DNA of 64,000 bases from an uncultured Bryobacteraceae bacterium (GCA_938027685.1 CALJAM010000006.1:62001-126000), one strand, 5' to 3'; positions 29,530 through 39,878 are shown, counted from the stretch's first letter. Notes: generated from the letters alone by a model not told the origin. A program made the numbers and translations.

Positions 29530-30585
29530 CTACTTCGGCTCCAGCAGCACCCAGCCGAAAGGCGCGAGGAGCTGGTTGCTGATCATGCATAGGGACCGCG
29601 ACGAGCCCATGCCTTGGATAGGTTGCCTGCGCTGCGCATTCCAGCCGCTGCGGAATTCGTCCACGGAGAGCGATTCGAAGTGCGAGAAGCGGCCGATGCG
29701 AAGGAGGATGGAACCCTGGGGCCACGAGGACGGGACCCAAGAACGCCCCGCCAGGAGGGGGAAGTTTTCGACCTCCTCGCGATGGCGCTTCCAGAAAAAA
29801 TAGCAGCACGACTCAATCACGAAATCCCACTGGAGCGGGCTCTTGACGGTCGCGCGATCGTCCAAGGCGATGCGAACATCGCACGAGGGCGGTTCCTTTC
29901 CGTCCGCTCGCGACAGCAATCGCTCGACGTGGAGCTGAATCTTTTGCGCCTGCGAAGCTTGGCCGCCGCGGTTCACGATCATAACGCGATCCACGCTCAC
30001 GGCTTCGGGGGGCAGTTCGCCGTCCGAGACGCGCACCATCCGCAGCGGATCCTGCTCGGTGAATCGCCTCTGGTATCCCAGCGCCTTCTCCTCTAGGGTC
30101 ATCCAGGCCGTCCCGCGGTTTTTCTGTAGGGCTTCCTTCACCGCAGGTCCCACCGAAGAGCGCTCATGGTGCGCGAGCACGCTCACCACCGCGGTGCGGA
30201 TTGCGCCCTTGATGGCCGAGCCCGGGACGATCACTTTGCCCGCGTGGAGGTTGCGCACGAAGGTGTGCACCTCCCCGGATTTCCTGTCAGGAGAGGCGTT
30301 CTGCAGTTCACGGCGTGCAGGTTCTCCTATTCGGGCACGGTACGACTGGAACTGCGCGCTCTGGGCGGCTGCGTGGACCAGCTTGCGTGCCTCGTCGAGC
30401 CGGTTCGCGGCGATGAACTGTTCAAACTGCCGGCGCTGGACAGGAGGCCAATCCAGGAGAAGCCTGTGCATGTTGATACGCACCAGCCAGTTACCTTGCA
30501 GGAAATATTCGTCCGGCGCGATCGTCTCGCCGGTGCCGATGTGTACCGGAGTCAGCGGGACGAGACGGAAGACACGTTCCTCCAT
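29530..30585 (-). CDS. csm5: Type III-A RAMP protein Csm5
   Basis: FRLVPLTPVHIGTGETIAPDEYFLQGN; VIVPGSAIKGAIRTAVVSV; position after csm4. Confidence 0.88.
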   Translation of the reverse strand: MEERVFRLVPLTPVHIGTGETIAPDEYFLQGNWLVRINMHRLLLDWPPVQRRQFEQFIAANRLDEARKLVHAAAQSAQFQSYRARIGEPARRELQNASPDRKSGEVHTFVRNLHAGKVIVPGSAIKGAIRTAVVSVLAHHERSSVGPAVKEALQKNRGTAWMTLEEKALGYQRRFTEQDPLRMVRVSDGELPPEAVSVDRVMIVNRGGQASQAQKIQLHVERLLSRADGKEPPSCDVRIALDDRATVKSPLQWDFVIESCCYFFWKRHREEVENFPLLAGRSWVPSSWPQGSILLRIGRFSHFESLSVDEFRSGWNAQRRQPIQGMGSSRSLCMISNQLLAPFGWVLLEPK

Positions 30586-30595
30586 ACACGCCTCC

Positions 30596-31531
30596 TCAAG
30601 ATCCCTCCGCTTCGCGATAGCCCACCGTCAGATGCCACGCGTTGTGACGGATTCGCAGGCCGTCGGGGGGCGAAGGGTGTACGTTATCGAGCAGTTCGCC
30701 GAAGGGGCCGTCGCCGTCCGGGCGGAACGTCGCCCCCGGCTGCAAAAGCAGCAACGGAAATTTGAACGGCTGCTCGCAGCGGGCCAGCCAATTGCCCAAG
30801 CGTCCGAGATGGGTCTCCGCGCGATAGAGCGGATCGAGCATGTTGGGCGTCAGCGAACCGTGCGAGAGACTCATTCGGCGGTTTCCGGTGAAGGCGAACA
30901 GCTCGTGTTCCTCTTCGACCGCAGTCACGCGGAAGCGGCCCCGCCCCCAGGTTGCGTCGCGGCCGTAGCCCGTCATACCCACGTGCTCGAACAGTCGCTT
31001 CAGCCGCTCGGCTGCGAGATCGGCGCCGATGTAAACGTCGAAAAACGCGTTCTCGCCCCGCGGCCAGCGCTCCTGCACGTAGTACAAACCGCCTTCCTCC
31101 AGGGTTTGAGCCGTTCGCCGGTCGATGCGGTTGTGGGGTAAAGATACCTGTTCGAGGCTCGGGGCGTCCGCCGCCCTTTCGTCCAGCGCAGCCGGACTCA
31201 CCGCAGCCCGCACCTTGAGGAAGTCATCGCGGCGGATCCACCGCGCCTGTTTGCGGGCCTTGATTTTTCGCAGGAACTCCCGTCGCTCCCTGGCGTCTGC
31301 GGGTATCGCTTGCCGCGGGCCGGGCGCCAGCAGCGGCCGCGGCAGCCACCCGGCGGGAAACCCGTCGGAGATGAGGAAAGGCTTTTCGCCGAGCCCATCC
31401 AGCCACGCCGCCAGCGAGTGCTCGCCCTCGAGTTCCCGCCAGGCCCAGCACAGATGACCGAAGAGCGTGCCCGAGTGGAGCGGCGTGGCCAGGGGGCTCT
31501 CCAGAGCCAATCGCACGCGATAATGGTGCAT
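30596..31531 (-). CDS. csm4: Type III-A RAMP protein Csm4
   Basis: YRVRLALESPLATPLHSGTLFGHLCWAWRELEGE; HVGMTGYGRDATWGRGRFRV. Confidence 0.88.
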   Translation of the reverse strand: MHHYRVRLALESPLATPLHSGTLFGHLCWAWRELEGEHSLAAWLDGLGEKPFLISDGFPAGWLPRPLLAPGPRQAIPADARERREFLRKIKARKQARWIRRDDFLKVRAAVSPAALDERAADAPSLEQVSLPHNRIDRRTAQTLEEGGLYYVQERWPRGENAFFDVYIGADLAAERLKRLFEHVGMTGYGRDATWGRGRFRVTAVEEEHELFAFTGNRRMSLSHGSLTPNMLDPLYRAETHLGRLGNWLARCEQPFKFPLLLLQPGATFRPDGDGPFGELLDNVHPSPPDGLRIRHNAWHLTVGYREAEGS

Positions 31532-31534
31532 CGC

Positions 31535-32302
31535 TTACCTCTCGAACAGGCGGATCGGCGGTTGTTGCAGGCTGGTCAGCGGCTGGATGGCGTCGAACTG
31601 CTGTTGGATATCGCGCTCGTCAAGCCGCAGACTGCTGAACCGTACCCGGCCGTAACCACGGGAGCCGGAACCGCCCAGCGCGTCATGCTCGAGCAGCTTT
31701 AGAGCCGTGACCAGCCACTCGATGGCCTCCCGATCGCGCGCTCCCCCGTCGCCGTTGACCGAGTACTCGCGGATGATCATCTCGACGCCAAAACGGGCGC
31801 CCGCGGGAACCCGCTCCATGGTGCGGGGGCCGATGTTGCCGGCCGCTTTGCCCTGCAGACGGTCGATGACCACCTCGGTCTTTTCCTCGGTCAGGTTCAG
31901 CCCCATGGCCAGCGTGTCTTTCTTCCACTGCTCGTCGAGGTAAGCGTCGCGCACGATCAGACGCGTGGGTCCGCCGCGCCACTTCTTGCTCGTGCAGCCG
32001 AACAGGCGCAGGATGACGTCGTTGGGGTCGTACTCCCGGTCCGCGTCGCTTCCATAAGGTAGGCCGTCGCTCTGCACCTTGCCGCAGGCCCACTCGAGCA
32101 GGCAGCGCAGCTTACCCTTCAGGCTGGAGCCCGGGATGTACGGCTCGTGCGTGTGCGGGTGCTTAATGACGGGACCGTCCAGGCCGCCGATCTCGACCGT
32201 CTCGCGCCCGGCCCCGATGTGCAGCCCCGTCTTGACTTCCAGCGTCGCCGTCAGCTTGTGCCACTTTTCGAACCGGATGGAAGCGCCGTTGTTCTTACTC
32301 AT
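31535..32302 (-). CDS. csm3: Type III-A RAMP protein Csm3
   Basis: TATLEVKTGLHIGAGRETVEIGGLDGPVIKHPHTHEPYIPGSSLKGKLRCLLEWACGK; candidate catalytic Asp in GLDGPVI. Confidence 0.93.
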   Translation of the reverse strand: MSKNNGASIRFEKWHKLTATLEVKTGLHIGAGRETVEIGGLDGPVIKHPHTHEPYIPGSSLKGKLRCLLEWACGKVQSDGLPYGSDADREYDPNDVILRLFGCTSKKWRGGPTRLIVRDAYLDEQWKKDTLAMGLNLTEEKTEVVIDRLQGKAAGNIGPRTMERVPAGARFGVEMIIREYSVNGDGGARDREAIEWLVTALKLLEHDALGGSGSRGYGRVRFSSLRLDERDIQQQFDAIQPLTSLQQPPIRLFER

Positions 32303-32787
32303 CGCTCCTCCTCCTTACCGTAGTACTCATGAAAAGCGACGACCGCCTGAAAATGGCGGCAAAATGCGTCGAAATCTCTCACGTTCTTGACCGCATGGGT
32401 GTGGTTCACAAAAAACTGCAGCAGTTCGTCCGGAAAGACCCTCCGGCTGCGGCCGTTGGCATAGTGAGCCTTGGCCTTCAGCATTACGAACTCGGCCCGC
32501 AGCCGATCGAAGGCCTCCTGACGCGGATCCGGACCCTGGATCTGCTCGGCCATCAGGTCGAGCCGTCGCTGCAGGTGCACGACCTCGTTGTAGTAGCGTC
32601 GCAATTGCGTCTTGTTGATCTTGCCGGCCAGCTTCTGTGCAAAGGCGCGAGCCTCACCGTCGAGCAACTCAAGTCGGATCTGACCATCCGCCCCGAAGTA
32701 GGCCACGCTCTGGGGCGTGAGGTCGGCGCGCCTCTGCGCCTGAGGGTTCGGGCCGGCAGACTGAGATTGAGGTCTGGGGTTGGGCAT
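32299..32787 (-). CDS. csm2: Type III-A small subunit Csm2
   Basis: Small helical protein (YYNEVVHLQRRLD...AEFVMLKAKAHYANGRSRRVFPDELLQFFVNHTHAVKNVRDFDAFCRHFQAVVAFHEYYG) between cas10 and csm3; ATGA overlap with csm3. Confidence 0.88.
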   Translation of the reverse strand: MPNPRPQSQSAGPNPQAQRRADLTPQSVAYFGADGQIRLELLDGEARAFAQKLAGKINKTQLRRYYNEVVHLQRRLDLMAEQIQGPDPRQEAFDRLRAEFVMLKAKAHYANGRSRRVFPDELLQFFVNHTHAVKNVRDFDAFCRHFQAVVAFHEYYGKEEER

Positions 32788-32792
32788 CGTCT

Positions 32793-35288
32793 TTACCTCC
32801 TTCGTTCTCCGGGATTCCGATTGCGATACAAAACCACGGTGACCGCCAGCTCGGGCGGCGCTGCCGGTTGCTGCTGCCGCAGATCGGCGTCGAGTCCGAG
32901 CAGGCGATTGCTGAGCTTGCGCAACTCTTCGGCCTCCTCTCGCTTGTCATCGGGGAGCCGGCGCAGGTGTCTGGCCAGGTAATAGCCCCAGCGCGCCGGC
33001 CAATCGGCGGCTTTCAACTCCATGGGCACGCCCTCAGCCAGGCGGCGTTGCCCCGCGAAGTACAGCACCCTGTGCAGGAAAAGGGAGTGGATCACATCTT
33101 CGCGGAACAACCGGTTCAGGGACTCCGCGTCCGCCAGGGCCTCGGCAAACACATCCCAGTCGAGGCCGCGGCTTACGATCGCGCACACGCGATCCCTCTC
33201 CTTTTTGGCCTCTTCCAGTCGCTCCTCGGCGCGGTTGACCGCGGGCCCGACCGGATGTTGCGACTTCAGCAGCTCGATGCCGGCCGAAAGCGTAACGTTG
33301 GGATTGTCGCCCGTCCACTGTCTGAACTTCGCGCGCAGGGCACTGGCCATCTGCAGGGTCTGGCGCCACGGGCCGATCAGAAGCATGTCATCGCCGCCCG
33401 CGTAAACCGTGTACATCGACGGGAAATCCCGCTCGAGCAGGTGCGGCAGATAGCCGGCGAAGAAGAAATCCATCATTCGCGACAGCGCGGCGAAGCGGCT
33501 GAGCGTCTGATCCCGAAGCCCGAAGGAAAAGATAGCGCCCAGACGATCGACGTCCGCCTTGAAGACCGCCAGCAGCGGCTCACCGAGGGGCTCCCCGTCG
33601 ACCGGCTCCAAGCCGTCCAGGGCGATGTGTTCGAACGTCTTGAGCTCACCGACCTCTACCTCGCGGGCTTCTTCGCTGAGCAGGCGATAGGCAGGCTTGC
33701 CGGCATCGGAAGCCTTGAGCCTGGGGACATAGCCGGCCAAAAAGCGGACCGGAAGCCGCTCGTCGGCTTCCGCGGCACGATATAAGCGGAAGGCCGAAAG
33801 CCAATCGGCGTGGGCGCGTTCAGCCTCGAAGCGCCAGTCGAGGTCGAGTTCCGCGAAAAAGCGGATCCTGCCCTGCCCCCGGCGGCGCCAGCAAAGCGCC
33901 GCCAGGCGCGGCAGCGCGCCGCCCAACTCGTGCTCCTGAGCACAGACCTCACAGCGACCTTCGTCTCCGGTATCCCGCGCCGGGCGCACGCCGCATGACT
34001 TGCATTCGCCGTGAGGATAGTCGAGCGGAAGCACGCAGGAAGATACGAACTCGAAGGCGCGCAGTTTGGCGGTTTCCACGGATGCGCGCAGCGAATCCAA
34101 CAAGGCCGGAAAGTTCTCGCGCAGCAGATCCTCCCCGCTGAAGGGCTCGCTGAGAGCCAACAGGAGTGCCAGGTCGCCGAGATAGCGTTCGTGCATCCAG
34201 GGATCGATCTGCCTGCGCAGTTGCGAGACGTGGTCGTGAACCTCGGGCAGGTCGGGGACCAGCAGCAGAAAGCGGCCGCCGGCGGTCTGGAGCAAACTGA
34301 AAGGCGGCAGTTCGAGCGCGCGGCGGCAGGCCAGGGCGCCCGCCTCCGCGGTGAGGGCAATCAGCAGCGAGCGGGCGCGCAGGATCTTGTTGAGGCCTTT
34401 GATCTGCTCGGCCGCCAGGCGGAACAGGGTCCGCTGGATGCCCGAAAGATCGCCGGCCAGGAAGCGGAATTTCTTCAGCCTGCGGTCACGGATTTTCCCG
34501 GCCGCCGTAAGCCCGTCGGCGTCCTTTTCGTGCCATCGGTAGAGGGCCGCGGCGACCGCGGCGGCCACCCGGTGATGATCGTGCAGCGAGATATCGGGCT
34601 GGTCCACGACGGAGGACGGAATCGCGAAGGTGTAGCGCTCCGAGAGCGACAGGGCGGCCTCCGCGAACAGATCGAAGGTCGGCAACGAGCAGGCGCGAAG
34701 GAAAGCGTCGAAGAAGTTCTGCCACAGCGTGCGGTAGCGCTCGGGGTAATCACCGGTGTCGACTTTCGGCTGCGGTAACAGCTCGTCCGCCGGCTTCAAT
34801 TCGCCCAGCGGAATCTGGGAGCCTGGGGACGCACCCAGACCGATACCGAGGTCCACGCCGTCGAACGGGTTCTTCAAAGGCGTCTGGAGATAGCCCGGCC
34901 GCACCCGGCCGTAGATCTCGGATTCCTGCATCTCATCCCGCGCCTTGCGATCCATGCCCGCGGCGAGGCGATCGGCTTCCGCCGCCAGCTCGCTCAAGGG
35001 GATGTTGGGCGAAGGTGCATGATGATAGACGGCGATCTCACGGACTTTTTCCAGGCGCACGCCGGGCAGGCGGGTGTGCCCGAGTTTCTCGAAGAAGGCG
35101 TCGGTCCAGAGAGCATGCCAGTGTGTCTGGCGGCCCTCGCGCGAAGGTAGGACGTCGGCGGCACGGCGTCGCACCTCGGGGTCCATCTCCTCCAGCGAAT
35201 CATGCGCCCTTTGCATGAATTTGCCTATATCGTGCAGGAACACGCCCAGAACGGTTTCCTCGATGGTGGGCAACTCGCGTGCGCTCAC
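32793..35288 (-). CDS. cas10: Type III-A Cas10/Csm1 with HD nuclease and GGDD cyclase motifs
   Basis: VLGVFLHDIGKFMQRAH (HD), CKSCGVRPARDTGDEGRCEVC (Zn-binding), MYTVYAGGDDMLLIGPW (GGDD). Confidence 0.96.
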   Translation of the reverse strand: MSARELPTIEETVLGVFLHDIGKFMQRAHDSLEEMDPEVRRRAADVLPSREGRQTHWHALWTDAFFEKLGHTRLPGVRLEKVREIAVYHHAPSPNIPLSELAAEADRLAAGMDRKARDEMQESEIYGRVRPGYLQTPLKNPFDGVDLGIGLGASPGSQIPLGELKPADELLPQPKVDTGDYPERYRTLWQNFFDAFLRACSLPTFDLFAEAALSLSERYTFAIPSSVVDQPDISLHDHHRVAAAVAAALYRWHEKDADGLTAAGKIRDRRLKKFRFLAGDLSGIQRTLFRLAAEQIKGLNKILRARSLLIALTAEAGALACRRALELPPFSLLQTAGGRFLLLVPDLPEVHDHVSQLRRQIDPWMHERYLGDLALLLALSEPFSGEDLLRENFPALLDSLRASVETAKLRAFEFVSSCVLPLDYPHGECKSCGVRPARDTGDEGRCEVCAQEHELGGALPRLAALCWRRRGQGRIRFFAELDLDWRFEAERAHADWLSAFRLYRAAEADERLPVRFLAGYVPRLKASDAGKPAYRLLSEEAREVEVGELKTFEHIALDGLEPVDGEPLGEPLLAVFKADVDRLGAIFSFGLRDQTLSRFAALSRMMDFFFAGYLPHLLERDFPSMYTVYAGGDDMLLIGPWRQTLQMASALRAKFRQWTGDNPNVTLSAGIELLKSQHPVGPAVNRAEERLEEAKKERDRVCAIVSRGLDWDVFAEALADAESLNRLFREDVIHSLFLHRVLYFAGQRRLAEGVPMELKAADWPARWGYYLARHLRRLPDDKREEAEELRKLSNRLLGLDADLRQQQPAAPPELAVTVVLYRNRNPGERRR

Positions 35289-36439
35289 TTTTGCGTCTCC
35301 TCGTCCTTAGATAAATAGTGAATTTGGTGAGGCTCGAGTTTCAGCTCGTAGCGCGTTTCGGGGCGGCGACCGCCGGCGTGAATCATGTAATCCTCGGCGC
35401 GACGCCCGAGGTGCCGGCGCAAAATCCTATGGAGTTTCGAGCGACGCTGCAGGAAGTAATTCTTGTCCATGCCGCCGCGCAAGGCCTTGGTCGTGCGGTC
35501 ACTGGGACCGAGGTTGTCGAAAGCTTGCCTGTACTCGGCCAAGAATTCGCTTGCGTAGTCCGGGTCTAAGTGGCCTTCTGTGGGACATTCCAGACCCGGC
35601 CGGCCTTGCAGTTTCCGGCGCGCGAACCAGCTCAAAAAAGCCAGCTCCGCCGGCGGCAATCGCACTTCGGTGCCTCCCGCCTCGATGCGGCGATCTCTTA
35701 GGTTAATGGTAAGCTTGGGCGGACCGAGCACGTTTTGCGCGGCACCGACCACATCACGGAAGCTGACACGGCCCGCCAGCAACTCCTCCGGCAAGCCGTG
35801 CCGGAGGCGCAAAAAGGGAATCTCGGCCAGGCTGACCGTGGCCTGCGCGGTATCCAGCGGGCGTTCGTCGGGCGGTCGCGTGTAAATGACGCGGCTGCGA
35901 GTAGTGGGATAGAAAAATTCCGGATGCGATTCGTAGGGCGGCGAGACCAACACATGCGAGAGCCGGTCCTGCGGTCGCCCGAACAACGACAGCGCATAGC
36001 CGAGGTAGAAGCCCATCGTTTTGCGGCCGCCGGCGATGGAGACGTGCAGGGCCGCGTCTTCGTCGCGCGTCAGCTCGCGCACCAGCTCCGTGATCCGGTC
36101 CGCCGTGCGCTCGTTGTCATCCACCGTACGGATGTCCGGCAACGGCCGACCCGAGCCGTCCTCCAGCACGTAAATGGTGGACTCGTCGAAACGGATCGGG
36201 GGTAAATCGTACTCCCTGCACAAGCGCCTGAACCAACCGGGCTCCTCGCTCAAAAGGCTGAGCCGCACGCGCTGGGCGCCTTCGGCGGTCGTCAGGACGT
36301 GAATCTCGGTAGGTACGAAGGGCGGCCGGCGCTCCACTGCCAACGCAAAGACCGTCTCGGTTACGACTTGCGGCGTCAGTCCGCAGGCCGTCAACAGAAT
36401 CCGTCGTGGATATTCGTGAGGATGATCCGCGTTGCGCAT
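35285..36439 (-). CDS. NE0113/TIGR02584-type CRISPR-associated CARF protein (ring-nuclease/Csm6-like) with winged-helix-like C-terminal region
   Basis: RRILLTACGLTPQVVTETVFAL; LHVSIAGGRKTMGFYLGYALSLFG; C-terminal LTINLRDRRIEAGGTEVRLPPAELAFLSWFARR. Confidence 0.8.
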   Translation of the reverse strand: MRNADHPHEYPRRILLTACGLTPQVVTETVFALAVERRPPFVPTEIHVLTTAEGAQRVRLSLLSEEPGWFRRLCREYDLPPIRFDESTIYVLEDGSGRPLPDIRTVDDNERTADRITELVRELTRDEDAALHVSIAGGRKTMGFYLGYALSLFGRPQDRLSHVLVSPPYESHPEFFYPTTRSRVIYTRPPDERPLDTAQATVSLAEIPFLRLRHGLPEELLAGRVSFRDVVGAAQNVLGPPKLTINLRDRRIEAGGTEVRLPPAELAFLSWFARRKLQGRPGLECPTEGHLDPDYASEFLAEYRQAFDNLGPSDRTTKALRGGMDKNYFLQRRSKLHRILRRHLGRRAEDYMIHAGGRRPETRYELKLEPHQIHYLSKDEETQK

Positions 36440-36461
36440 CGACTCCGTCCTTACGGCAATG

Positions 36462-37466
36462 TTATCCGCCAACCGTGGTCCCAGCTTGCGATGGCAAGCT
36501 TTCCGCACTTCGGGCGGGCAGCAATGCGTAGCGGCCCAGGCCCATCGTTGCTCCTTTGCCTGCGTGCAGAAACTGGCCCAGCCAGAGATAGGGCCAGAGC
36601 TGCCTCAACTGGGCCCCGGGCAGTTCGAAGGAGCCCAGCAAGCCGCCCATGAGCATCCTTTGTCGCTGTCGGGAGGAGTAACGCGCCCACTCCTCCCAGC
36701 GCAGATCCGCGCGCTCGATCTGCACGCGGCGGGACTGCTCGACCAGACCGGCGAAATCGGTCTCCAGCGGACGGCTGCCATGGAAGTACATGAGCAGCGA
36801 GCAGCGGCGGAGCAGGTTGGAAAACAGATCGGCGAAGCGGAAATCTTGCGGGCCGATGTAACGCTCGTCGATGCGAAGCCTCAGGGGCGTGATCAGCACG
36901 AGGCGGACGCGTTGAGGCGGCGCCGGGCAGACCGGCATTTGCGCAACCTCGGGCTGAAGCTTGCCGGCGGCGTCCATGATGCTACGCCAAGGCCCCCTGC
37001 CCGGCACGAGCTGCTGTTCGACCCCTTGGAGCTCGAACGGCCTCCGGAGGGGATGGATGCCATAGCGGGCCCCGCGAGCGAAGGCCTGCACGACGTACGC
37101 CAACATCTGGTTCGCGCGTCCGAACAGGGTTACGTTCAGCACGTAATCATCGCCGGAGGACGAGGCGGCCGGCAGCAGCACGAAGGGGTGCGGCGCGGCC
37201 GTGTATTTGCGCATCTTTTCGGCGCCCGGCGGAGGGGGTGTTTCGAATAAATACGAATAAATGCAGGTGTGATAGAGCAGACAGGCCGGGCACTCGACGT
37301 CGCGCACCGTGCACACCAGACGTTTCAGCGCCCAGCCGAAAATGCCGCGCCAGGCCGATCCGGTCCAGCGTTCCTGAGGAACGGCCGAAGCGGGCGAAAA
37401 ATGGAGCCGGTAGCAGCCGATTTCCAGCTCCGGTGATTCCGCTGCGTTGCCGAAATTCATCGTCAT
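36462..37466 (-). CDS. cas6: CRISPR pre-crRNA endoribonuclease Cas6
   Basis: ERWTGSAWRGIFGWALKRLVCTVRDVECPACLLYHTCIYSYLFET; C-terminal Gly-rich GKGATMGLGRYAL; operon position. Confidence 0.88.
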   Translation of the reverse strand: MTMNFGNAAESPELEIGCYRLHFSPASAVPQERWTGSAWRGIFGWALKRLVCTVRDVECPACLLYHTCIYSYLFETPPPPGAEKMRKYTAAPHPFVLLPAASSSGDDYVLNVTLFGRANQMLAYVVQAFARGARYGIHPLRRPFELQGVEQQLVPGRGPWRSIMDAAGKLQPEVAQMPVCPAPPQRVRLVLITPLRLRIDERYIGPQDFRFADLFSNLLRRCSLLMYFHGSRPLETDFAGLVEQSRRVQIERADLRWEEWARYSSRQRQRMLMGGLLGSFELPGAQLRQLWPYLWLGQFLHAGKGATMGLGRYALLPARSAESLPSQAGTTVGG

Positions 37467-37852
37467 TCCTCTCCGGCTTCCTCGGATTCGCCATTTTTAT
37501 CACACGACGGGCTCGGCTCCCGCAACTCTTCGTCTCCTTCCCCGTCACCCAAAAGTCCTCCCAGCAGTGGATCAGCCAGGTGCACGCCGTCCGGCAGGTA
37601 CAGGCGGCCCAGCGTCACAGCCTCGCACCTCTCGGGCAGGGGGTAAGCGCGGACGTCGTCCGAACGCGGGTCGATGCGCTGGTTGATCTCCGCCAGCAGG
37701 CTCACCAGGCGCCGCTCGCTCAGACGGACCAAGAACACCGAGTACTGCACCGGCATGGCATGCTTTTTCAGGAAAGCGTGGACGCGCTGCAGCCGGCGCG
37801 GATCAGTAATATCGTAGCTGATAAGATACAGCCTCACCTCCGACGTGCTCAT
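37463..37852 (-). CDS. cas2: Cas2 family protein (copy A) with extended acidic C-terminus
   Basis: VRLYLISYDITDPRRLQRVHAFLKKHAMPVQYSVFLVRLSERRLVSLLAEINQRIDPRSDDVRAYPLP. Confidence 0.9.
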   Translation of the reverse strand: MSTSEVRLYLISYDITDPRRLQRVHAFLKKHAMPVQYSVFLVRLSERRLVSLLAEINQRIDPRSDDVRAYPLPERCEAVTLGRLYLPDGVHLADPLLGGLLGDGEGDEELREPSPSCDKNGESEEAGEE

Positions 37853-38625
37853 CGTATTCCTCCCAGCCAGTACATGAAACGGTTCAGCAGCTGCGAGAGC
37901 CGACGATCGGTCTGTTCGCCGTGCCGCTCGAAGATCTCGACCAGCTGCTTGCGGAAATCGGGGCGTCCGGGCACGGGGCGGTCGGGCTCGGGCATCCCGG
38001 CCCAGTCACGCAACCAAACGTAGTGACCCCATGCCGCGATCCGCGTGCAGTCTGCAGGCAGATTCCAGCCGGGGCGACGGTCGATCAAAAGAGGCGCTTC
38101 AGCGCCCGCGTCCGCGAGCTTCGAGGCGACGCGCGCCGCCAGCAGTCCGTTCCAGTAGCGCAGCACGGCGCGAGCAGCTTCGCTCAGCCCGGGGGCAGCG
38201 GCTTCGAGCAACAGGGGCGCCACGCGGTCGGGGCGCAGATCGGTCACGCGCAGCTTCAGGCGCTTCAAAACGCCCAGGATCTCGCGCCGCTCCGCGGCCC
38301 GCCGCCAGTTCTCGTAGAGGGTGCGCCAGTCCGCGCGCTCGAGGAGCTCCTCTAGTCGGTCGTTCAACGGCTGCCGTCGCGGCTGCGCGGCGAGGCAGTA
38401 CGCGCGGGGGTCGCCCTCGGCGGTGAGAAACGTGACCGGGATGCCCTGGTCCAGGCAGCTCAGCAGAGCCTCCGCGTCCCACTCCACCGGGCCGCTGACG
38501 ATCACACGCGCCAGCAGGCGGAACGGGTACATGCCGTCGGCCCGGCCCTCGCTCACCACGCGCAGCGAAGGACCGTCGCGCAGCACCAGGGCGCGTCGTG
38601 CTCCATCAAGGTATAGACTCCTCAT
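37849..38625 (-). CDS. Divergent, apparently inactive Cas1-like protein
   Basis: Cas1-like N-terminus (MRSLYLDGARRALVLRDGPSLRVVSEGRADGMYPFRLLARVIVSGPVEWDAEALLSCLDQGIPVTFLTAEGD) but 258 aa and no HxxxxxxxSLxxDLxE block; sandwiched between cas1 and cas2A. Confidence 0.75.
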   Translation of the reverse strand: MRSLYLDGARRALVLRDGPSLRVVSEGRADGMYPFRLLARVIVSGPVEWDAEALLSCLDQGIPVTFLTAEGDPRAYCLAAQPRRQPLNDRLEELLERADWRTLYENWRRAAERREILGVLKRLKLRVTDLRPDRVAPLLLEAAAPGLSEAARAVLRYWNGLLAARVASKLADAGAEAPLLIDRRPGWNLPADCTRIAAWGHYVWLRDWAGMPEPDRPVPGRPDFRKQLVEIFERHGEQTDRRLSQLLNRFMYWLGGIR

Positions 38626-39586
38626 CCCTCTTGCCCTCCTTTGGCGTGAGATCGGGAAACTCCGCCTCGAGCGCGCGCACCACCAGGCGGCACATGCGTC
38701 GCAGCCGCCGGCGGATGCGCGAAGCCAGCGCCTCGTGCGTTTCGTAAAAGATGCGGCGCCCGGCTTTGCCCAACAGACAGGCGCCCCGCACCGTGCGGAA
38801 ATGCTCGCGCCGCAGAGTCCGGTGCCGGAACATTTCCCACACCCACTCGTCCAAACGCGGCCGCAGCGGTTCGATCAGATCGCAGGCCAGAGACTCGCGA
38901 TTCCAGGCCGGTTCGTGGTAAAAACCCAGATGAGGATCCAGGCCGACGGCCTGCACGGCTTGCACCGCATCGTAGTGCGCCAGCGTGTAGCAAAGGGAGA
39001 GACAGGCGTTGACCGGATCCTTAGGCGGGCGACGGTTGCGACCCCGGAATTCCAGCGCGGGCGGGAAGACCGCCGCGAGCGCACGGAAGTACACGCTCGC
39101 CGCCGCGCCCTCCAGGCCCATCAGGGCGGCCCGCTCCGTTTCGCCGGCCGCATGCGCCAGCCGCAGAATCTGCTCGATCGACGAGGCCAGGGTCGCCCGC
39201 CGGTCGGGCTGCGTGCGCATCAGGCGCCGCAGCGTACGCGCCTGAGCAGCCAGCTTGCTGCGCAGTAACCTCGCCGACCATCGCCGCCGCCACTGCTCGC
39301 TGAGGTACGCCTGATATTGCGCCAGGCGTCGGGTCGCATCGCCCATGGGCCCGCCCAGCAGGAAGGCGGCACGTCCTTCGCTTCGGCCCAGGATCACCAG
39401 CGCCACTCCGTGACGCGCCAACCAACTGATCAAACCGGTGGTCAGGGTCAGCGGAGCCGTGATCACGACGCGTTCCAATAAATTCAAAGGAATGCTGCGG
39501 CAATAACGCCGGTCTTCGTAAATACCCAGCGCCCGGCCCTGCGGCCGTAATTCCACGCTGCCCCGGTCCACGTACAACGTCGCCAT
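38606..39586 (-). CDS. cas1: CRISPR-associated integrase Cas1 (canonical)
   Basis: MATLYVDRGSVELRPQGRALGIYED...LMGLEGAAASVYFRAL...PVNACLSLCYTLAHYDAVQAVQAVGLDPHLGFYHEPAWNRESLACDLIEPLRP. Confidence 0.95.
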   Translation of the reverse strand: MATLYVDRGSVELRPQGRALGIYEDRRYCRSIPLNLLERVVITAPLTLTTGLISWLARHGVALVILGRSEGRAAFLLGGPMGDATRRLAQYQAYLSEQWRRRWSARLLRSKLAAQARTLRRLMRTQPDRRATLASSIEQILRLAHAAGETERAALMGLEGAAASVYFRALAAVFPPALEFRGRNRRPPKDPVNACLSLCYTLAHYDAVQAVQAVGLDPHLGFYHEPAWNRESLACDLIEPLRPRLDEWVWEMFRHRTLRREHFRTVRGACLLGKAGRRIFYETHEALASRIRRRLRRMCRLVVRALEAEFPDLTPKEGKRDEESIP

Positions 39587-39590
39587 GGTC

Positions 39591-39878
39591 TCACCCGAAA
39601 TAGAAGAAAGGCGTATCCTCAGGAGGCACCGCGATGCCCAGCGTCCGCACGCGGGAACGCGGATCGAGCCGCACCAGCAGAAAGCTGTCCTCCCCGCGCT
39701 CGATGACCTCGGATATCTCCGCCAACAAAGTCGCCCGTTCAGCCTCGGTCAGGAAACACTCGAAAACCGACTTTTGACCTCCGGTCGCGTAGGCCTTGAG
39801 CACCTGATGCGCGGCGCGCAGTCGGCGCGGCGCGCTAATGTCGTAAGCTGCGACATAGAGGTGCCGGGTAGCCATCAC
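39591..39878 (-). CDS. cas2: Cas2 (copy B)
   Basis: RHLYVAAYDISAPRRLRAAHQVLKAYATGGQKSVFECFLTEAERATLLAEISEVI. Confidence 0.93.
   Translation of the reverse strand: MMATRHLYVAAYDISAPRRLRAAHQVLKAYATGGQKSVFECFLTEAERATLLAEISEVIERGEDSFLLVRLDPRSRVRTLGIAVPPEDTPFFYFG

Follow-up and report, generated by a model that had tools for sequence, protein, structure and literature searches.

The window analysed here, a stretch of 64,000 nucleotides (64 kb) from an uncultured Bryobacteraceae bacterium, carries the four consecutive minus-strand genes cas2B, cas1, cas1' and cas2A, of which cas1' encodes a diverged Cas1 (Table 1). All four open reading frames lie where the earlier note had placed them, and the overlaps of 20 bp between cas1 and cas1' (38606-38625) and of 4 bp between cas1' and cas2A (ATGA), as well as the difference of about 70 residues between both Cas1 proteins (258 versus 326 aa, i.e., 68 aa), were found as described. 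The Cas2B span of 39878-39591 does correspond to an open reading frame with a GTG at 39878, but the assigned start probably needs a small adjustment: relatives conserve the next codon, an ATG at 39875, which is the more likely start. Cas1 matches Pfam PF01867 with an E-value of 1.8e-69, and the family matches of Cas2A and Cas2B reach 9e-18 and 3e-13.

Table 1. Position of the quartet, its neighboring genes and related loci. Plain numbers refer to the window; other positions are given with the locus or contig.
Feature	Position	Strand	Description
cas2B	39591..39878	minus	95 aa; its clade has a ATGGQKSVFECFLT motif and a conserved FYxG-type tail at the C-terminus
cas1	38606..39586	minus	326 aa; E159, H224, D236, E239 intact
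cas1'	37849..38625	minus	258 aa; diverged Cas1, degenerate active site
cas2A	37463..37852	minus	129 aa; VQYSVF-type Cas2 with C-terminal extension
cas6	36462..37466	minus	PF10040; 4-bp overlap with cas2A end
CARF-domain protein	35285..36508	minus	NE0113/Csx1 family (cOA-signalling effector), family matches
cas10/csm1	32793..35288	minus	NCBIfam Csm1, 532 bits
csm2	32299..32787	minus	NCBIfam Csm2
csm3	31535..32302	minus	NCBIfam Csm3, 210 bits
RAMP protein, csm4 position	30596..31531	minus	weak RAMP match; flanked by csm3 and csm5; L156 and L160 have homologues at the csm4 position
csm5	29530..30585	minus	NCBIfam Csm5
Type I-A-like locus of the window genome	L168, G000:C13:18000-27154		Cas3, DevR/Csa2-family Cas7, Cas1, Cas2; without Cas1'
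Plasmid Cas2B-Cas1-Cas2A modules	L074:11986-13693; L075:5986-7586		two Cas2 genes flank one Cas1
Lone quartet-type Cas2B-Cas1 in G627	L159:2422-3754 (G627:C8)		without Cas1' or Cas2A, near contig start
Cas1' with C-terminal extension	L024:18575-19528; L025:14335-15288; L026:2999-3934; L155:6850-7830		

Downstream of the quartet and in the same direction follow cas6, a CARF gene, cas10/csm1, csm2, csm3, a RAMP gene and csm5. As Cas10/Csm1, Csm2, Csm3, Csm5 and Cas6 are all present, the gene content identifies the operon hosting the quartet as type III-A (Csm). No CRISPR array was detected in the 64-kb window, nor in the greater part of its contig; three further contigs of this genome have arrays with the repeat GTTGGAACGCTGACCTGATGAAGAAGGGATTGAGAC, which belongs to the quartet-type class, at one end (end of C28, start of C33 and start of C34). 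The assembly breaks inside these arrays and therefore the full spacer content of the organism is irrecoverable from the contigs. The same genome contains a second CRISPR-Cas locus, which is type I-A-like judged by its genes and has no Cas1' (Table 1).

The relationship of Cas1' to Cas1 is only partly visible in a single-sequence Pfam search, which matched PF01867 with an E-value of 1.3e-5 and covered residues 13-79 only. In the HMM-HMM comparison proposed in the earlier note, a profile of 20 Cas1' sequences aligned globally with a profile of 17 Cas1 sequences (1-258 against 1-310, probability 99.6%, E-value 1.3e-23); a version of the Cas1' profile built from 11 sequences gave a probability of 98.7 over 1-196. 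The 11-sequence profile also matched solved Cas1 structures, among them 8d3l with an E-value of 1.1e-9 as well as 4wj0 and 4xtk over most of the length, and Pfam Cas_Cas1 matched 11 of the 11 Cas1' scanned. At the level of profile comparison Cas1' is homologous to Cas1 along its full length. An AlphaFold2 model of Cas1' calculated from two sequences only (window and L003) had a pLDDT of 40, too low for use. The length of Cas1' varies from about 250 to 320 aa across members, and the proteins of G555 and of a single genus group share a conserved C-terminal extension, GNLGRIPFGxRxSLRTSVRIxRxYL, which is absent from the Cas1' of the window (positions in Table 1).

A comparison of the active sites revealed that the canonical Cas1 keeps its catalytic residues, as the earlier note had claimed, and all four positions (E159, H224, D236 and E239 in window numbering) are retained in 19 of 19 partner Cas1 proteins. 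The corresponding residues in the window Cas1' are D133, D182, D192 and R195, and the full E/H/D/E set is found in none of the 20 Cas1' sequences, which agrees with the suggestion that this protein is apparently catalytically dead. Counted by position, the Glu-equivalent is acidic in 15 of the 20, the His is kept in three, the Asp-equivalent is acidic in 18 and the last acid is present in four; in the remaining 17 sequences D, E, W, F, G, A or L stands in place of the His. The (near-)invariant RxRRPPxDPVN segment of Cas1 is missing from Cas1'. Of these assignments, that of the Glu is the least secure because the position falls in a gapped stretch of the alignment. The view that the Glu-equivalent is always acidic in Cas1' was dropped at 15 of 20, once nine more sequences had been added. 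The active site of Cas1' is thus degenerate in every member, and the residues lost differ by lineage. The frequent acidic residues and the three retained histidines would fit a protein which is not fully dead but still has some metal-dependent nuclease activity, reduced or altered, such as the trimming of prespacer ends, but no Cas1' has all four ligands, the His is mostly replaced and the Glu equivalence depends on the gapped stretch, so that we regard such an activity as unlikely.

The loss of the active site, the shortening and the high divergence of Cas1' could also indicate a functionless, decaying duplicate of Cas1, which had been considered in the earlier note. In contrast to what is expected for drift, with dN/dS near 1, the dN/dS value of Cas1' between the window and L003 (NG86) is 0.14, compared to 0.17 for Cas1, 0.20 for Cas2A and 0.17 for Cas2B. 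L003, a contig of a Bryobacteraceae MAG, has all four quartet genes intact and in the same order, with an identity of 76% for Cas1'. Together with the conservation of Cas1' in 20 genomes from three classes of the phylum, these values argue for purifying selection on Cas1', and a decaying duplicate seems hardly tenable. The intact frames in this independent orthologue also led us to reject a sequencing or frameshift artefact, and a chance open reading frame was considered and rejected as well. The conservation is unevenly distributed: Cas1' is conserved better in its N-terminal region (0.49 versus 0.39), Cas1 in its catalytic region (0.70).

To judge how widespread the arrangement is, the neighborhood survey suggested in the earlier note covered genomes of a single phylum, presumably Acidobacteriota. 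A true Cas2B, which the Cas2B profile separates cleanly from the others (E<=1e-33 versus >=1e-17), is present in 21 genomes, and 20 of them have the order Cas2B-Cas1-Cas1'-Cas2A. These 20 genomes belong to several families and three classes. They comprise the window genome, L003, G122, G085, G196, G111, G344 (where the quartet is divided between two contigs), G460, G387, G444 and G224 as well as G555, G624, G612, G579, G636, G735, G520, G670 and G564. An identical order in 20 genomes is far above chance. G627 has a lone quartet-type Cas2B-Cas1 pair near a contig start (Table 1). A scan of the whole collection with the window Cas1' as single query matched only L003, and searches of related genomes yielded no full-length Cas1' outside a quartet. 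Two single-protein scans of viral contigs found no relatives, and plasmid searches with Cas1' gave either no matches or matches solely to genes with an ordinary Cas1 annotation.

The quartet is accompanied by III-A effectors in the window genome, G624, G612, G579, G636, G387 and G224 and by III-B effectors in G122 (Cas10/Cmr2 and Cmr4). Arrays with up to 106 repeats adjoin it in G387, G444, G224, G085, G612, G636 and G670, with almost no spacer repeated (in G224, for example, 103 of 105 are distinct). The exchange of the effector type in combination with adjoining arrays of nearly all-distinct spacers indicates that the quartet is a working adaptation module and not a part of the interference machinery. 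The effector exchange also bears on the possibility raised before that the dead Cas1-Cas2 pair is coupled to the type III effector. Cas1' shares an operon block with cas6, the CARF gene and the csm genes, and might link adaptation to the effector or to cOA signalling in order that spacers are selected from transcribed targets. As III-A and III-B effectors both accompany the quartet, this coupling is less likely, and according to a review (PMC9048733) direct adaptation in the type III systems tested so far requires no more than Cas1 and Cas2; we consider the coupling very unlikely.

A tree of 43 Cas2 proteins placed 13 Cas2A in one clade (support 97/82) and 13 Cas2B in another (100/98), with the single Cas2 proteins of ordinary loci outside of both. 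The internal groupings of the two subtrees broadly match, and Cas2A and Cas2B differ in their C-terminal tails. Two proteobacterial plasmids, of Sphaerotilus sulfidivorans (NZ_CP035707) and Aeromonas media (NZ_CP047963), carry Cas2B-Cas1-Cas2A modules, which share the Cas2A, Cas2B and Cas1 clades with the quartet but have no Cas1'. The Aeromonas module adjoins a toprim-domain gene and a III-B operon, and the Sphaerotilus module adjoins BREX genes. Since the plasmid Cas1 nests within the clade of quartet Cas1 proteins (support 100/99, with 97/99 at the inner node), Cas1' is, according to the tree, dispensable in some lineages. The simplest history would be that the paired Cas2 and Cas1' were both there early on and that the plasmid lineages subsequently lost Cas1'; a twofold gain of Cas1' is also conceivable.

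These data bear on whether the four proteins act together or in two separate complexes. The palindromic gene order, with Cas2B beside Cas1 and Cas2A beside Cas1' including the ATGA overlap, and the distinct clades and tails of the two Cas2 proteins would be in line with a Cas1-Cas2B integrase and a non-catalytic Cas1'-Cas2A DNA binder, which serves to capture or measure prespacers, or competes for them and thereby dampens acquisition. However, the plasmid modules retain both Cas2 types with a single Cas1 and therefore Cas2A is not tied to Cas1', and no Cas1'-Cas2A pair was found without Cas1-Cas2B, so that two complexes appear rather unlikely to us. A single complex is supported by the homology, the loss of the active site, the purifying selection, the strict order and co-occurrence, the separate Cas2 clades and the nearby arrays. 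The co-occurrence as such fits one complex or two alike, and the plasmid modules without Cas1' as well as the Cas2B-Cas1 pair of G627 count against a heteromeric integrase.

In known integrases a Cas1 dimer is bound at each end, with one catalytic and one structural protomer, and two identical Cas2 subunits form the bridge. These complexes are two-fold symmetric and half of their Cas1 subunits are idle, yet spacer insertion needs a defined polarity, and in type III systems the strand of the spacer determines whether immunity works. In Cas1 structures the N-terminal domain mediates dimerisation. The overall composition of Cas1-Cas2 integrases is four Cas1 and two Cas2 (PMC9048733).

On balance, we lean towards the assumption that the quartet encodes one heteromeric spacer-integration complex, in which Cas1' occupies the position of the idle Cas1 and which loses its two-fold symmetry through the pairing of Cas2A with Cas2B. 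Among the roles suggested before for a dead Cas1-Cas2 pair, heteromeric integrase assembly would fit the data best. The catalytic protomers would come from Cas1, and Cas1', with its N-terminal domain best kept and its active site lost, would take the idle protomer position, while the Cas2A:Cas2B heterodimer would bridge the ends of the complex. The opposite conservation patterns of Cas1' (N-terminal) and Cas1 (catalytic region) are expected if Cas1' was kept for assembly. A complex with distinguishable halves could help to fix the orientation of the prespacer or the leader-versus-spacer docking. We infer the complex, its stoichiometry and the role in orientation from gene order and conservation. 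More tentatively, the asymmetric heterohexamer of Cas1, non-catalytic Cas1' and Cas2A:Cas2B might imply that polarity in spacer capture or insertion is determined by the division of labour between paralogues, and not by host factors or a PAM alone. If true, the catalytic and idle roles of Cas1 as well as the two Cas2 positions are split into separate genes, each of which can be mutated alone, and it becomes directly testable what the idle Cas1 subunit does and how integration polarity arises. Given the dependence of immunity on the spacer strand, this would be of relevance for type III systems.

The existence of a diverged second Cas1 is already known, and in this respect the arrangement had partly been described before: PADLOC-DB contains the profile PDLC01185, named 'Cas1, diverged variant, second in the loci', which is the best PADLOC match of the window Cas1' (E-value 4.5e-16), and as the name implies, cas1' directly follows an ordinary cas1 in the window. 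The profile matches nine of the first 11 Cas1' at E<=1e-3, its five best matches among 396 genomes from the phylum are all Cas1' genes, and all 11 Cas1' also match general Cas1 profiles. PDLC01185 consists of a profile name only and is silent on function, the two Cas2 lineages and the fixed four-gene order. In the main texts of open-access papers we found no account of the quartet as a module, of its paired Cas2 lineages or of a function, and no report testing the function of the second Cas1. The main text of the 2025 classification (PMC12669027) mentions no second, paralogous or diverged Cas1, and its two matches to 'diverged Cas1' refer to Cas10.

Other incomplete Cas1 homologues differ from Cas1' in context or extent. 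Cas1-solo group 1 proteins also lack the full catalytic set (PMC9939771, PMC9755687), but they are encoded by stand-alone genes, whereas every Cas1' found is part of a Cas1-Cas2 operon. Thermus thermophilus HB27c likewise has extra incomplete cas1 genes near type III arrays, but these encode C-terminal fragments of 74-87 aa near non-adapting arrays (PMC7515739), in contrast to Cas1' with about 250-320 aa, a best conserved N-terminal region and purifying selection. The canonical heterohexamer of four Cas1 and two Cas2 resembles the quartet in that Cas1 and Cas2 homologues are located beside CRISPR arrays, and canonical complexes contain catalytically idle Cas1 subunits, too (PMC12259127). However, the canonical complex is encoded by one cas1 and one cas2 gene, whereas the quartet comprises two unlike Cas1, one without an intact active site, and two unlike Cas2.
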